Source: Radicibacter daui
Lineage (GTDB): Bacteria > Pseudomonadota > Alphaproteobacteria > Radicibacterales > Radicibacteraceae
Length of the DNA stretch: 64,000 nucleotides
NCBI GenBank assembly: GCA_030657355.1
Contig: CP131057.1
Location: 517,501-581,500 of the forward strand
Direction: 5' to 3'
The position numbers were made by a program, and so were the translations under genes. Of this stretch, positions 49,556 through 54,085 are shown one piece after another. Each line of letters opens with the position of its first letter. The stretch's first letter is position 1. The notes under the pieces were generated by a model. The model was not told where the DNA came from. It saw nothing but the letters and a program-made list of their open reading frames with translations, and ran no database searches.

Positions 49556-50182
49556 TTGGATCTCAGCCTTTATATGCCGCAACTGATTGCCTTCCTGCAG
49601 GTGGTCGTTATCGATCTCGTGCTTGCCGGCGATAATGCTGTGGTGGTCGGCATGGCGGCTGCCGGCCTGCCCAAGGACCAGCGCCTGAAGGCGGTTGGCA
49701 TCGGCATTGCCGTTGCCACCATCGCCCGTATCGTCTTCGCCCTCGCCGCGACCCAGCTTTTGCAAATTCTCGGCCTGCTGCTGGCCGGCGGGTTGCTGCT
49801 GCTCTGGGTTGCCTGGAAGATGTGGCAGGAAATCCGCGCCAGTGTCGGCGACGAGGGCGAGGAAGGGGCAGAAGGGGGCGAGGCCGCGCCGCGCAAGACC
49901 TTCCGCCAGGCAGTGCTGCAGATCGTCATCGCCGACCTTTCCATGTCGCTCGACAATGTGCTGGCCGTGGCCGGTGCAGCGCGCGAGCATTATGTCGTGC
50001 TGGTCATCGGCCTCGTGCTGTCGGTAAGCCTTATGGGCGTGGCAGCCCAGATCATCGCCGGCTTCATCAACAAGCATCGCTGGGCCGTCTATATCGGGTT
50101 CGGTGTGGTGCTCTATGTGGCCCTCAAGATGTGTTACGAGGGCGCGATGGAAGTGGCCCAGGCCACCGGCGTAACCGGATAA
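49556..50182 (+). CDS. TerC/YjbE-family integral membrane protein
   Basis: The product of about 208 residues has six to seven membrane helices with the TerC/YjbE hallmarks VVVIDLVLAGDNAVVVGMAA and the symmetric IVIADLSMSLDNVLAVAGAA; the Asp/Asn pairs bind cations. A charged central loop (GDEGEEGAEGGE) separates the halves. Relatives export manganese or affect metal loading of exported proteins. I start at the TTG at 49556 behind AGAAGGA; the first ATG is six codons later (49574). The 298-base upstream gap contains no manganese riboswitch that I can recognise. Confidence 0.88.
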   Translation: MDLSLYMPQLIAFLQVVVIDLVLAGDNAVVVGMAAAGLPKDQRLKAVGIGIAVATIARIVFALAATQLLQILGLLLAGGLLLLWVAWKMWQEIRASVGDEGEEGAEGGEAAPRKTFRQAVLQIVIADLSMSLDNVLAVAGAAREHYVVLVIGLVLSVSLMGVAAQIIAGFINKHRWAVYIGFGVVLYVALKMCYEGAMEVAQATGVTG

Positions 50183-50299: not shown

Positions 50300-50315
50300 C
50301 CTACCTTCTGGTAGG
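50300..50315. promoter_or_regulatory. Palindromic operator, site 1 (tetR-type gene autoregulation)
   Basis: CCTACC-TTCT-GGTAGG is a perfect 6+6 palindrome ending ten bases before the TetR-family start codon. Its 14-base core CTACCTTCTGGTAG recurs exactly at 54031-54044, and related sites lie at 51044 and 53901. Confidence 0.85.
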
Positions 50316-50324
50316 CAGGTTTTT

Positions 50325-50966
50325 ATGCAGACCGTCCAGACAGAAAAAGACCCGCTTCACCTCATCTCCGGCACAGCGGGCCGGATCCTCGACAGCGCAC
50401 AATCGCTCATCCGCGACCGTGGCTATAACGGCTTCAGCTATGCCGACATTGCCGACGTCATCGGCATCCGCAAGGCGAGCATCCACCACCACTTCCCGTC
50501 CAAGACCCAGCTCGGCGAGGCGGTTGTGGCGCGTTACCGGGCAGACGTGGCCCGCGCCATGGCCCAGCTCGATGCCGGGCTGCCAACCGCGCGGGAGCGC
50601 ATCGTCGCGCTGATCAACTACTGGTCAACCTGCATCCGCGACCGCAGCGCCCCTTTCTGTGTCTGCGTCCAGCTGGCTGCCGAATTGCCGGCCTTGCCGG
50701 AGGTGATTGCCGGCGAGGTTCGCCTGCATTTCCGCACCATCACCGACTGGGTCGCCCATACGCTGAAAGCCGGCCAGCGCGACGGTTCCCTCAAGCTGGA
50801 CCGACCTGCCGCTGACGAAGCAGACTGTTTCATCGCCGCCCTCCATGGCGCTCTCATCAGCGCCCGCGCCCTTGGCACCTCACCCGCCGCCGGAGAAAAG
50901 GACGATGCCGGGGCCCGGACTTTCACCTCCATCACCGGAGAGCAACTGAGGCGACTTTCGCCCTGA
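50325..50966 (+). CDS. TetR/AcrR family transcriptional regulator
   Basis: The product of about 213 residues has the TetR helix-turn-helix at residues 38-58 (SYADIADVIGIRKASIHHHF), and the C-terminal ligand domain contains three clustered cysteines, C103, C112 and C114 (FCVCVQLAAEL). The cysteines suggest sensing of electrophiles or oxidants, though they may be structural. I start at the ATG at 50325, just after the operator; a longer frame would include the operator. The same palindrome lies before the MAPEG gene and before the oxidoreductase operon, which defines a local regulon. Confidence 0.93.
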   Translation: MQTVQTEKDPLHLISGTAGRILDSAQSLIRDRGYNGFSYADIADVIGIRKASIHHHFPSKTQLGEAVVARYRADVARAMAQLDAGLPTARERIVALINYWSTCIRDRSAPFCVCVQLAAELPALPEVIAGEVRLHFRTITDWVAHTLKAGQRDGSLKLDRPAADEADCFIAALHGALISARALGTSPAAGEKDDAGARTFTSITGEQLRRLSP

Positions 50967-51043
50967 ACCTCTCCTGAAAGCACCGTTTTCAAGCCTTCTC
51001 CGGCGGCATGCCCGCGCCTGAAAGGCTCTCCTTTAGCGGGCTA

Positions 51044-51059
51044 ACTACCAACTAGTAGA
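51044..51059. promoter_or_regulatory. Palindromic operator, site 2 (MAPEG gene)
   Basis: A-CTACC-AACT-AGTAG-A is a slightly degenerate copy of the TetR-type operator, ending 14 bases before the MAPEG start and overlapping its ribosome site. It best matches the reverse complement of site 3 at 53901-53916. Confidence 0.75.
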
Positions 51060-51073
51060 AAGGCACTCCAATC

Positions 51074-51466
51074 ATGACTGTCGAACTCACCGTACTCAGC
51101 CTGCTCGCCCTCGGCTGTCTCGTTCTGCCGCTGGTCTATTCACCGCTCTATTCAAAACAGGTGGGCAACGCCGGCCTGATGAGTAACCGCGACGATATCC
51201 CGGCTCCCACCGGCGCTGCCGGGCGCGGCCTGCGTGCCCATCGCAATCTCATCGAAAATCTGGTGCCCTTTGCCGTGGCCGTGCTGGTTGCCCACACTCT
51301 GGGCATCAGCAATGGCGTTACAACTGCCGGCGCCTGGCTCTTCCTTGCCGCCCGGCTGGTGCATGCCATCACCTACATCGCCGGCATCAAGGTGGTTCGC
51401 ACCCTGTCCTGGTTCGCCGGCGTGATTGGCACGCTGCTCATCCTGTCGCAGATCTTCTTTGCCTGA
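51074..51466 (+). CDS. MAPEG family membrane protein
   Basis: The 130-residue protein has four predicted membrane helices (LTVLSLLALGCLVLPLVYSP; LVPFAVAVLVAHTLGIS; AGAWLFLAARLVHAITYIAG; FAGVIGTLLILSQIFFA) and the MAPEG motif with Arg and Asn in GRGLRAHRNLIENL. Eukaryotic relatives conjugate glutathione or make eicosanoids; bacterial functions are mostly unknown but often linked to detoxification. The gene lies downstream of the TetR-type gene and has its own copy of the operator, so it is likely derepressed together with the oxidoreductase operon. Confidence 0.92.
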   Translation: MTVELTVLSLLALGCLVLPLVYSPLYSKQVGNAGLMSNRDDIPAPTGAAGRGLRAHRNLIENLVPFAVAVLVAHTLGISNGVTTAGAWLFLAARLVHAITYIAGIKVVRTLSWFAGVIGTLLILSQIFFA

Positions 51467-51472
51467 AGCGCC

Positions 51473-51512
51473 AGCATTACGGCGGCCCTCGAAAGGAGGC
51501 CGCCGTAATGCT
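51473..51512. terminator. Long perfect hairpin between convergent MAPEG and oxidoreductase genes
   Basis: AGCATTACGGCGGCC (51473-51487) and GGCCGCCGTAATGCT (51498-51512) form a perfect 15-base stem with a 10-base loop. There is only a weak T run, but its position seven bases after the MAPEG stop and before the convergent stop suggests a bidirectional terminator. Confidence 0.75.
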
Positions 51513-51523
51513 GCTTTCAGGCG

Positions 51524-52291
51524 TCAGATCCCCGCATACCACTGATATCCCCGGTCTTCCCAATAACCGCCTTTGCCGCCCCACAACCGGCCGAAGCCGT
51601 CGGCGATCTCGATCCGCATCAGATATTTCGCCTGCTTGTATCCGAGCTGCCGCTCCACCCGCAGGCGCAGCGGCGCCCCGTGCCCGACAGTCAGATCGGC
51701 GTTGTTCATGGCATAGGCGAGGATCGTTTGCGGGTGGAAGGCATCGACCAGATCGATGCTCTCATAATATCGCCCGCTGCCATCGAAGCTCTGCTCGAGC
51801 TCGTCCGCACAATAAAAGATGGCATAACGTGCCCCCGGCTTCAGGCCGGCAGCCGTCAGCAGCAATCCCAGCGGCACACCCGTCCATTTTCCGATCGCAC
51901 TCCAGCCCTCGACACAGTCATGCCGGGTAATCTGGGTCCGGGCGGGAAGTTTCTTCAGATCCGCCAGCGACAGCTCCATCGGCCTGTCGACAAGGCCATC
52001 GATCCTGAGCCGCCAGTCGGCGAAATTCCCCTCGGCCAGCCGCGCATAATCTTCACTCTCTGGCCGGCTGGTGCCGTTGACCCGAAAGGTCGGGGAGATA
52101 TCTTTTTCGCCAAACTCCCGCGCCAGTGCGCCGCGCCCCAGCAGCAGGCGCTGTGCCGACAGGGTGAGTTTCCCGGCACCGGTCAGCGCCACCCGGCTTA
52201 CCAGATCGGCGTTCAGGGCGAACGCTGCTGCGCCGGCGCCAAGCGCGCCGCCAGCAAGCAGCAGCCGCCGCGAGAAGGGTTTTTCCGTCAT
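51524..52291 (-). CDS. Tat-exported molybdopterin-dependent oxidoreductase (sulfite-oxidase fold)
   Basis: The 255-residue protein has a twin-arginine signal (FSRRLLLAGGALGAGAAAF) and the sulfite-oxidase-type molybdenum-binding domain, with the metal-ligating cysteine C126 in RHDCVEGWSAIGKWTGVPL. HGAPLRLRVERQLGYKQAKY is the conserved cofactor-binding end. It lacks the dimerisation and cytochrome domains of true sulfite oxidases, like YedY/MsrP. It should fold with cofactor in the cytoplasm and act in the periplasm. The ATG at 52291 overlaps the stop of the cytochrome b gene by four bases, so that membrane protein is probably its electron partner. Confidence 0.93.
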   Translation of the reverse strand: MTEKPFSRRLLLAGGALGAGAAAFALNADLVSRVALTGAGKLTLSAQRLLLGRGALAREFGEKDISPTFRVNGTSRPESEDYARLAEGNFADWRLRIDGLVDRPMELSLADLKKLPARTQITRHDCVEGWSAIGKWTGVPLGLLLTAAGLKPGARYAIFYCADELEQSFDGSGRYYESIDLVDAFHPQTILAYAMNNADLTVGHGAPLRLRVERQLGYKQAKYLMRIEIADGFGRLWGGKGGYWEDRGYQWYAGI

Positions 52292-53142
52292 GATCTGGGC
52301 TCGCGATAGCGGATGGCATACTGCCCGGTGACCATCGAGCGCAGATTGTTCCACGGCCCTGACAGGACGACCATCGCCACATGCACGAAGACAAACAGCG
52401 CCAGCAGGGAGGCCGTCACGAAATGGATTGTGCGTGCCGACTGGCGGCCGCCGAAAAGATCGACGAGCCAGGGGAGCGCCGCATCCATTCCCGGCGACAT
52501 CGTAAGGCCGGTCAGCAGCATCGCCGGCAGCATCAGGAAGATGACGATCAGATAGGTCAGCTTTTGCAGCGCGTTATAGTGGCGGGCGGCATCACCCTCG
52601 GGAAATCTGAGCCGCGCGTGATCGGCAATTTCCCGGGCCAGATGCCTCAGCGAGAATTGCCCGCGTACCGGGGCCAGATTTCGCCGGAAATGCCCGCTGA
52701 GAAAGCTGCTGGAGAGATAGACGAGGCCGTTGAGGACGAAGAACCAGGCAAAGAGGAAATGCCATCCGCGCCCTGCCCCCAGATCCTGGTAGGACGGCAG
52801 GGTTATCCATGCCGGAAAAGCCCGGACGGTCGGCTCACCGTCGCTCCGCGAGACCCCGAGCACACCGGTGGTCGAAAGCTCCGCTTCGCCCGCGCGGATA
52901 AAACCGCTGAGGCCGCTTTCAGTCTCTCTGGCACCAATTGTCAAAACAGCGGGATCGCCGTCGGCGCCATACTGGCCCCAGTAGAGTTCCGGATGAGCGT
53001 TGAAAATCTGCAACCCGCTCATCAGCAGCAGCAAAAGATTAACCGCATTCAGCCAGTGCGTTATGCGCGTGACGAGGGAATGGCGCCGGACAAGCACTGT
53101 CCGGCTTTGCAGGGTGCGGTCCCTGCCGGCCTTGTCTGTCAT
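52288..53142 (-). CDS. Cytochrome b561-type membrane subunit
   Basis: The product of about 284 residues has four main membrane helices with histidines suited to bind two hemes: HSLVTRITHWLNAVNLLLLL, RGWHFLFAWFFVLNG, HYNALQKLTYLIVIFLML and RTIHFVTASLLALFVFVHVA. It resembles the b-subunits of hydrogenases and formate dehydrogenases. It should pass electrons between quinone and the periplasmic molybdoenzyme encoded next. A periplasmic loop follows helix 1 (HPELYWGQYGADGDP). I start at the ATG at 53142 behind GGAGG; a longer frame lacks a site. Confidence 0.93.
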   Translation of the reverse strand: MTDKAGRDRTLQSRTVLVRRHSLVTRITHWLNAVNLLLLLMSGLQIFNAHPELYWGQYGADGDPAVLTIGARETESGLSGFIRAGEAELSTTGVLGVSRSDGEPTVRAFPAWITLPSYQDLGAGRGWHFLFAWFFVLNGLVYLSSSFLSGHFRRNLAPVRGQFSLRHLAREIADHARLRFPEGDAARHYNALQKLTYLIVIFLMLPAMLLTGLTMSPGMDAALPWLVDLFGGRQSARTIHFVTASLLALFVFVHVAMVVLSGPWNNLRSMVTGQYAIRYREPRS

Positions 53143-53254
53143 CTTCAGCCTCCAGATTGCCTGCCGGCAAGGGCCGGCGAAAGAAAGCCGCCGCCAGCCG
53201 GCAAGGTGCACCGGGGACTGGTGCACTCAGGCCGGCCGGCGAGCGGCGTCAGGC

Positions 53255-53890
53255 TCACATCGGCGGGACAACACCATTGGTGCCGACGACCACGCGCCCG
53301 GAAGTCAGCGGGCCGTTGCCCTCCTGCGTGGCGGGGATGAAGACGATCGCGCCGGGAACGAGGTCAGCCGGCGTTGCCGGGGCAAGGGTCACCACCGGGG
53401 CCCCTTCCGGAACCGTTATGGTCTTTTCCTGCCCGTGATAGGTCACGGTCAGAGATTGGCCATCAATGCCCTTCACCGCATTGGCGACAGTGGCATTGGT
53501 CATGTTGCTTTTGGGTTTGAGGTCCCAGGCAAAACTGCCTTCCCCCGCGCCCTTGAGGGCCGGCGGGAAAATCAGCACTTCCAGCGCCCCGTCACCGCCG
53601 GCTTCCTTTGGCAACGACGCGATACCGACATAGTCGCCCGGCTTGATGTCACTCACGCTGGCCCTGGCAACACTGGAGATTTGCCAGCCCTTGGAAAGGG
53701 CCACATCCACCACAGCGCCCTCACGGGATTTTACCTTCAGCACATCGTCGCTGAAACCGACGACTGTGCCCCGGACATTATGGTGTTCAACGGTCGCGGC
53801 CATTGCCGTCGGCGCAGCAACGCTGATTGCGGCAGGAAGGCCCAAAGCGGCGGCGACAACGAACAGGGAAGAAAGCTTGCGAAGCATCAT
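53255..53890 (-). CDS. Exported protein with tandem DUF5666-like beta domains
   Basis: The 211-residue protein has a Sec signal peptide (MMLRKLSSLFVVAAALGLPA, cleavage near AMA). Two similar small beta-barrel-like modules follow: residues about 38-110 (VRGTVVGFSDDVLKVKSREG, IKPGDYVGIASL) and 135-205 (VKGIDGQSLTVTYHGQEKTI, LVPGAIVFIPAT). The fold resembles DUF5666 or OB-like domains; the function is unknown. It is the first gene of the oxidoreductase operon, 112 bases before the cytochrome gene, with two operator sites upstream. It may assist or bind the periplasmic molybdoenzyme. Confidence 0.78.
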   Translation of the reverse strand: MMLRKLSSLFVVAAALGLPAAISVAAPTAMAATVEHHNVRGTVVGFSDDVLKVKSREGAVVDVALSKGWQISSVARASVSDIKPGDYVGIASLPKEAGGDGALEVLIFPPALKGAGEGSFAWDLKPKSNMTNATVANAVKGIDGQSLTVTYHGQEKTITVPEGAPVVTLAPATPADLVPGAIVFIPATQEGNGPLTSGRVVVGTNGVVPPM

Positions 53891-53900
53891 CGAATTTCTA

Positions 53901-53916
53901 CCTACTAGTTGATAGG
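53901..53916. promoter_or_regulatory. Palindromic operator, site 3 (oxidoreductase operon, proximal)
   Basis: CCTACT-AGTT-GATAGG lies ten bases upstream of the minus-strand start at 53890, the same distance as site 1 from its gene. Its reverse complement is close to site 2. Confidence 0.75.
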
Positions 53917-54029
53917 ATTCTGGGGAAAGTTTCTGGCAAAGTTACGCCTTGCAATCAGCCAGTCTTGACCTTGGACCTTATCGCCTCGCAGCCACCTTCA
54001 AATTGAAGCATCGCGACGACCGCTAAATG

Positions 54030-54045
54030 GCTACCTTCTGGTAGG
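54030..54045. promoter_or_regulatory. Palindromic operator, site 4 (oxidoreductase operon, distal)
   Basis: G-CTACC-TTCT-GGTAG-G shares an identical 14-base core with site 1. It lies about 140 bases upstream of the minus-strand operon start and 40 bases after the LysR gene stop, so it probably gives a second binding site for the oxidoreductase operon. Confidence 0.82.
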
Positions 54046-54085
54046 TAGCCCGTCAAGGCAGGGCAAACCGCCCACTATGAGCAGG

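Follow-up and report, generated by a model that had tools for sequence, protein, structure and literature searches.

Genes and palindromes at the locus

The window, by which we mean the whole 64-kb stretch of DNA that was analyzed, contains a TetR-family regulator gene followed on the plus strand by a MAPEG gene, and an operon on the minus strand that is convergent to both. A TerC-family gene, also on the plus strand, lies upstream of the regulator and has its end at 50182. The features of the locus are as follows.

50300..50315, plus: operator site 1 (predicted), at the TetR promoter, A-type CTACCTTCTGGTAG; sequence CCTACCTTCTGGTAGG, an exact motif match
50325..50966, plus: TetR-family regulator, 213 aa, with Cys103, Cys112 and Cys114 (Pfam TetR_N and TetR_C_13; 2g7s, E = 2.9e-48)
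51044..51059, plus: operator site 2 (predicted), B-type CTACCAACTAGTAG; sequence ACTACCAACTAGTAGA
51074..51466, plus: MAPEG-family membrane protein, 130 aa (Pfam PF01124, 2.9e-22, 79.6 bits, over the cut-off)
51472..51513, unstranded: perfect inverted repeat of 16 bp separating the convergent units (repeat search), likely a bidirectional terminator
51524..52291, minus: molybdopterin oxidoreductase, twin-arginine-type periplasmic, sulfite-oxidase fold, MsrP-like; operon gene 3 (PF00174, 5.3e-36)
52288..53142, minus: cytochrome b561-type membrane subunit; operon gene 2 (PF01292)
53255..53890, minus: secreted beta-rich protein, 211 aa, no family in a Pfam search; operon gene 1, with homologues directly behind an operator in 18/18 loci
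53901..53916, minus: operator site 3 (predicted), B-type CTATCAACTAGTAG; sequence CCTACTAGTTGATAGG, minus strand CCTATCAACTAGTAGG
54030..54045, minus: operator site 4 (predicted), A-type CTACCAGAAGGTAG; sequence GCTACCTTCTGGTAGG
54051..54056, minus: -35 element TTGACG, just upstream of the CTAC arm of site 4, at the distance seen in homologous promoters

Two Pfam domains that both exceed their gathering scores place the regulator in the TetR family (PF00440, 4.6e-12, and PF16925, 3.1e-08). The oxidoreductase has a conserved RHDC motif; its best named match is MsrP, but it scores 87.5 bits against the NCBIfam MsrP model, under the curated cut-off of 207, and is therefore not assigned to MsrP. 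The operon also departs from MsrPQ (YedYZ), a periplasmic methionine sulfoxide reductase, in having a membrane partner that matches PF01292 and an additional secreted protein. A preliminary description of this DNA had taken the operon for a periplasmic molybdoenzyme system, which our annotation supports with the refinement that its first gene encodes an unclassified secreted protein, whose structural model (mean pLDDT 74) has no PDB match at E ≤ 0.001.

All four palindromes lie where the preliminary description had placed them, and within a span of 3.75 kb they can be reduced to a single 14-mer pattern, CTAYCWWCTRGTAG. With all sites set in a single orientation, the cores read CTACCTTCTGGTAG at sites 1 and 4, CTACCAACTAGTAG at site 2, and CTATCAACTAGTAG at site 3, which is on the minus strand. 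They had been called near-identical 16-base palindromes; near-identical they are, but perfect 6-bp arms over 16 bases occur in site 1 alone, and the unit common to all four is a 14-mer with arms CTAC/GTAG. The exact core CTAC-N6-GTAG is present at 3/4 sites, the exception being site 3, one arm of which reads CTAT. The pairing proposed earlier is also borne out, as the 14-mer of site 1 is identical to that of site 4 (extended match 17/18) and sites 2 and 3 match at 13/14 positions as inverted copies. Site 1 ends 9 nt before the TetR ATG (50325), site 2 ends 14 nt before the MAPEG ATG (51074), and site 3 ends 10 nt before the ATG of the first operon gene (53890), so that three sites do stand just before start codons, at a measured range of 9–14 nt rather than 10–14. 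The palindromes precede the TetR gene, the MAPEG gene, and the oxidoreductase operon as had been described, except that two of them precede one operon: site 4 lies 129 bp further upstream than site 3, before the same molybdoenzyme genes.

Specificity and conservation of the palindromes

The exact motif is confined to this locus. CTAYCWWCTRGTAG has 4 exact matches in the window and 0 in 100 dinucleotide shuffles, and pattern searches (used here in place of a matrix scan) of the 5.06-Mb genome returned only the same four sites, in keeping with the expectation of few other genomic matches. Allowing one mismatch gave no excess over the reversed control across the whole genome. CTAC-N6-GTAG alone occurs at ten genomic places, three of them at this locus; the other seven (L120-L126) offer no convincing promoter case and mostly lie inside probable genes or at their ends, with genes called by longest ORF only. 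A loose initial motif pattern and a scan at two mismatches were both uninformative. At the level of the class, a strict promoter-operator pattern, TTGAC-N6-CCTACY-N4-GGTAG, matches in 3/385 genomes, all three of which belong to the 6 genomes that have a TetR match at E ≤ 1e-30; by our own arithmetic such agreement has a chance of about 2 in a million. The strict match in this genome is site 4 (TTGACGGGCTACCTACCAGAAGGTAG), and the genome encodes one TetR of this kind at E ≤ 1e-20. Searches at the family and order levels returned matches from the window's own genome only.

Related loci in other bacteria carry the same sites before the same kinds of genes. One genome scan provided 80 loci with TetR relatives at 43–53% identity from alpha- and beta-proteobacteria, Acidobacteria, and Paenibacillus, to which two copies from one further genome (G354) were added to give 82. 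Since the 80 loci were seeded with exact query peptides, KASIHHHF among them, the recognition helix owes its 100% conservation in part to how the loci were chosen. In 75/82 loci, exact CTAC-N6-GTAG arms lie a short way before the TetR gene, and 6 more loci have the arms with one mismatch, as expected from the earlier prediction that the regulator controls itself. The proposal that the molybdoenzyme operon is a target is supported too, with an operator before homologues of its first gene in 18/18 cases checked. DUF308-like membrane genes have an operator upstream in 34/56 cases, compared with 0/9 for the internal cytochrome gene, 0/9 for the internal oxidoreductase gene, and a background of 2/4128 random same-size windows drawn from these loci. 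Seven loci (L050, L063, L065, L087, L094, L107, and L108) repeat the order TetR, site, secreted protein, cytochrome, oxidoreductase, and G354 carries the set twice, on different contigs (L158 and L176), each time with TetR, sites, secreted protein, cytochrome, and oxidoreductase. Two types of site can be separated, A-type (CCTACYAGAAGGTAGG) at the TetR promoter and B-type (CTACCAACTAGTAGG) at the targets, and site 1 of the window stands where 75/82 homologous loci have their A-type site. Across the class, relatives of the secreted protein and MAPEG mostly lack an operator site, indicating that the operator goes with the TetR locus rather than with the protein family. Recurrence of the same sites before the same gene kinds in at least three phyla argues that the switch is real and widespread.

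These patterns bear on whether the palindromes are operators at all. The hundreds of genome-wide matches at two mismatches are what a repetitive element, or chance matching in a GC-rich genome, would produce; however, no exact copy exists elsewhere in the genome, shuffles yield none, and the position is conserved in homologous loci. Exact-match uniqueness combined with this conservation refutes the repeat or chance reading, to which we attach a negligible probability. Site 1 might instead be the terminator hairpin of the upstream TerC gene, given that this gene runs in the same direction, with its end at 50182, and that a scan finds a 6-bp stem followed by the T-run CAGGTTTTTA, scoring the site as a weak terminator-like hairpin. 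Nonetheless, the identical core recurs at site 4 without a T-run and 75/82 loci, from several phyla, have the motif where TetR begins, so that a terminator in place of an operator is very improbable; the two roles are not exclusive and can coexist at site 1. On the basis of sequence, the four palindromes are almost certainly the docking sites of the neighboring TetR protein, as predicted.

Promoter geometry further distinguishes the sites. In A-type sites TTGAC precedes the CTAC arm at a constant spacing, which suggests that the operator fills the -35/-10 spacer, and the start codon typically follows the operator end by 8–9 nt at TetR and by about 10 nt at operon gene 1. Only site 4 has a good -35 element among the four window sites, and scanning with the sigma-70 consensus gave no promoter at all four. 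Because site 4 matches the strict pattern, we take it to be the main promoter-operator (canonical TTGAC-operator) for the molybdoenzyme operon, with site 3 a probable second operator at the start codon. Two sites also precede the operon at L158, L176, and L087, 107–191 bp apart. Across positions 53917–54029 of the window, site 4 (A-type) and site 3 (B-type) are oriented as in genomes with the order A-TetR-B-operon, with TetR absent between them; the molybdoenzyme operon may once have had a regulator copy of its own, since lost, with control passing to the TetR beside MAPEG. At L107:4514-4597 we also observed a second pair of A-type and B-type sites, CTACTAGAAGGTAG (with TTGACA upstream) and CTACCGACTAGTAG, which lie 70 bp from each other without an intervening TetR and, by our own reading of the translation, precede a FlgD-like fragment. 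This pair resembles the site 4/site 3 pair of the window and may mark where a TetR gene has been lost.

A predicted regulon and its probable inducing signal

We consider it likely that the locus is a local autoregulated TetR-type repressor regulon of three units with a thiol-reactive or oxidizing trigger, in which binding, sign, and trigger are our inference. A TetR dimer would bind the CTAC-N6-GTAG operators in the -35/-10 spacer or just before start codons and thereby hold three units: its own gene (site 1), MAPEG (site 2), and the molybdoenzyme operon (sites 3 and 4). A thiol-reactive or oxidizing compound would then modify conserved cysteines, putatively Cys112 (which corresponds to Cys106 of NemR), with Cys103 and Cys114 near in sequence, and the modified repressor would leave the DNA and allow the three units to come on. 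Repression rather than activation is presumed, as is a protective role for the targets; conservation of the palindromes is itself neutral on the sign of regulation. The preliminary description held that the DNA shows which genes the regulator controls, and this stands as a strong prediction, short of a demonstration.

MAPEG is a predicted target that is met less often, yet more than once. None of the 80 named TetR loci contains a MAPEG gene; the corresponding slot holds other small membrane proteins (DUF308-like, DUF4126-like, or of an unclassified family), and a structural model of the DUF308-like protein (mean pLDDT 90.7, six helices) has no PDB match at E ≤ 0.001. Exact-arm sites are also absent from 29 other MAPEG loci, and at L158 of G354 the site following TetR shares CTACCAACTAGTAGAAAGG with site 2 of the window but is not followed by MAPEG. 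Site 2 might therefore have served a different downstream gene and stand beside MAPEG by accident, with the regulon real for TetR and the molybdoenzyme operon. Against this, the 14 nt from site 2 to the MAPEG ATG is the usual geometry, and one independent genome, G086, has TTACCTACTAGTAGGTAA about 40 bp upstream of a MAPEG gene in a locus that also encodes a TetR of 44% identity. We regard the accidental reading as unlikely; each of the three predicted targets recurs with the operator in unrelated genomes.

The cysteines of the regulator bear on the signal. Cys103 and Cys112 are invariant among the relatives, and Cys114 is 93% conserved. The regulator is homologous over 175 aa (23% identity, E = 9e-12) to E. 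coli NemR, a TetR-family sensor of bleach and electrophiles, and Cys112 aligns with NemR Cys106, the residue that senses hypochlorite (PMC7464077). The second switch residue of NemR, Lys175, the partner in the Cys106-Lys175 bond, corresponds to Arg181 here, which is invariant in the family, so the exact chemistry of NemR cannot operate. NemR has different operator arms and controls nemA and gloA, where the window has MAPEG and the molybdoenzyme operon. The E. coli nemR upstream region contains a palindrome, TAGACCGACTGGTCTA, just before the gene, with ACC-N4-GGT in common with the sites described here. AltR of Pantoea ananatis, a TetR-family protein of an allicin tolerance cluster that is described as related to NemR, represses its own promoter through CAATCTAC-N6-GTAGATTG, which overlaps the -10 and the RBS; further inverted repeats are spread over the cluster, and the thiosulfinate response depends on the conserved Cys100 (PMC13178969). 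The AltR operator has the core CTAC-N6-GTAG, as do three of the window sites and the family consensus, but its flanks are CAAT...ATTG, the AltR cysteines are Cys100, Cys101, and Cys159, and AltR is induced by thiosulfinates and controls alt genes. The closest solved structure, the uncharacterized TetR protein of PDB 2g7s (Agrobacterium Atu0279), aligns over 171 residues that include the PFCVC motif, and the literature searched gave neither an operator nor a function for it. In Paenibacillus and Cohnella loci (L057, L078, L111, L115) the regulator precedes an unclassified membrane protein and an AhpC/TSA-type peroxiredoxin, which is consistent with oxidative or thiol stress.

The operator core shared with AltR and the cysteine position shared with NemR make a thiol-reactive signal the likeliest, although the chemical trigger is conjectural. 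The same regulator and operators could instead respond to a specific small-molecule ligand, for example a lipid, quinone, or aromatic compound, with the cysteines serving a structural role. Most TetR-family proteins bind a ligand in the C-terminal domain, and the targets are membrane or periplasmic proteins rather than classic enzymes of thiol repair. The three strongly conserved cysteines, one of them at the NemR switch position, the peroxiredoxin genes, and the cysteine dependence of AltR count against this alternative, which we consider less likely.

Local autoregulated TetR regulons are well known as a kind, whereas this subfamily, its operator, and its set of targets were not found in the literature searched, where no paper gave any of six operator cores in a bacterial context or connected TetR with a molybdoenzyme and b561. 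A broader reading, somewhat less likely than not, is an undescribed thiol-stress regulon that spans phyla: one TetR subfamily with a nearly invariant operator would control small membrane proteins that replace one another (DUF308-like, DUF4126-like, unclassified, or MAPEG) and, in some lineages, a periplasmic molybdoenzyme system, and proteins of unrelated families would then share a role in protecting the envelope. The comparative data support the preliminary description more strongly than the window by itself could. The operator places genes of unknown function (the secreted beta-rich protein, the DUF308-like membrane protein, the unclassified molybdoenzyme, and MAPEG) under one predicted switch, and it is conserved and specific enough that targets of this TetR subfamily can be predicted directly from DNA in several phyla and further regulon members sought in a uniform way.
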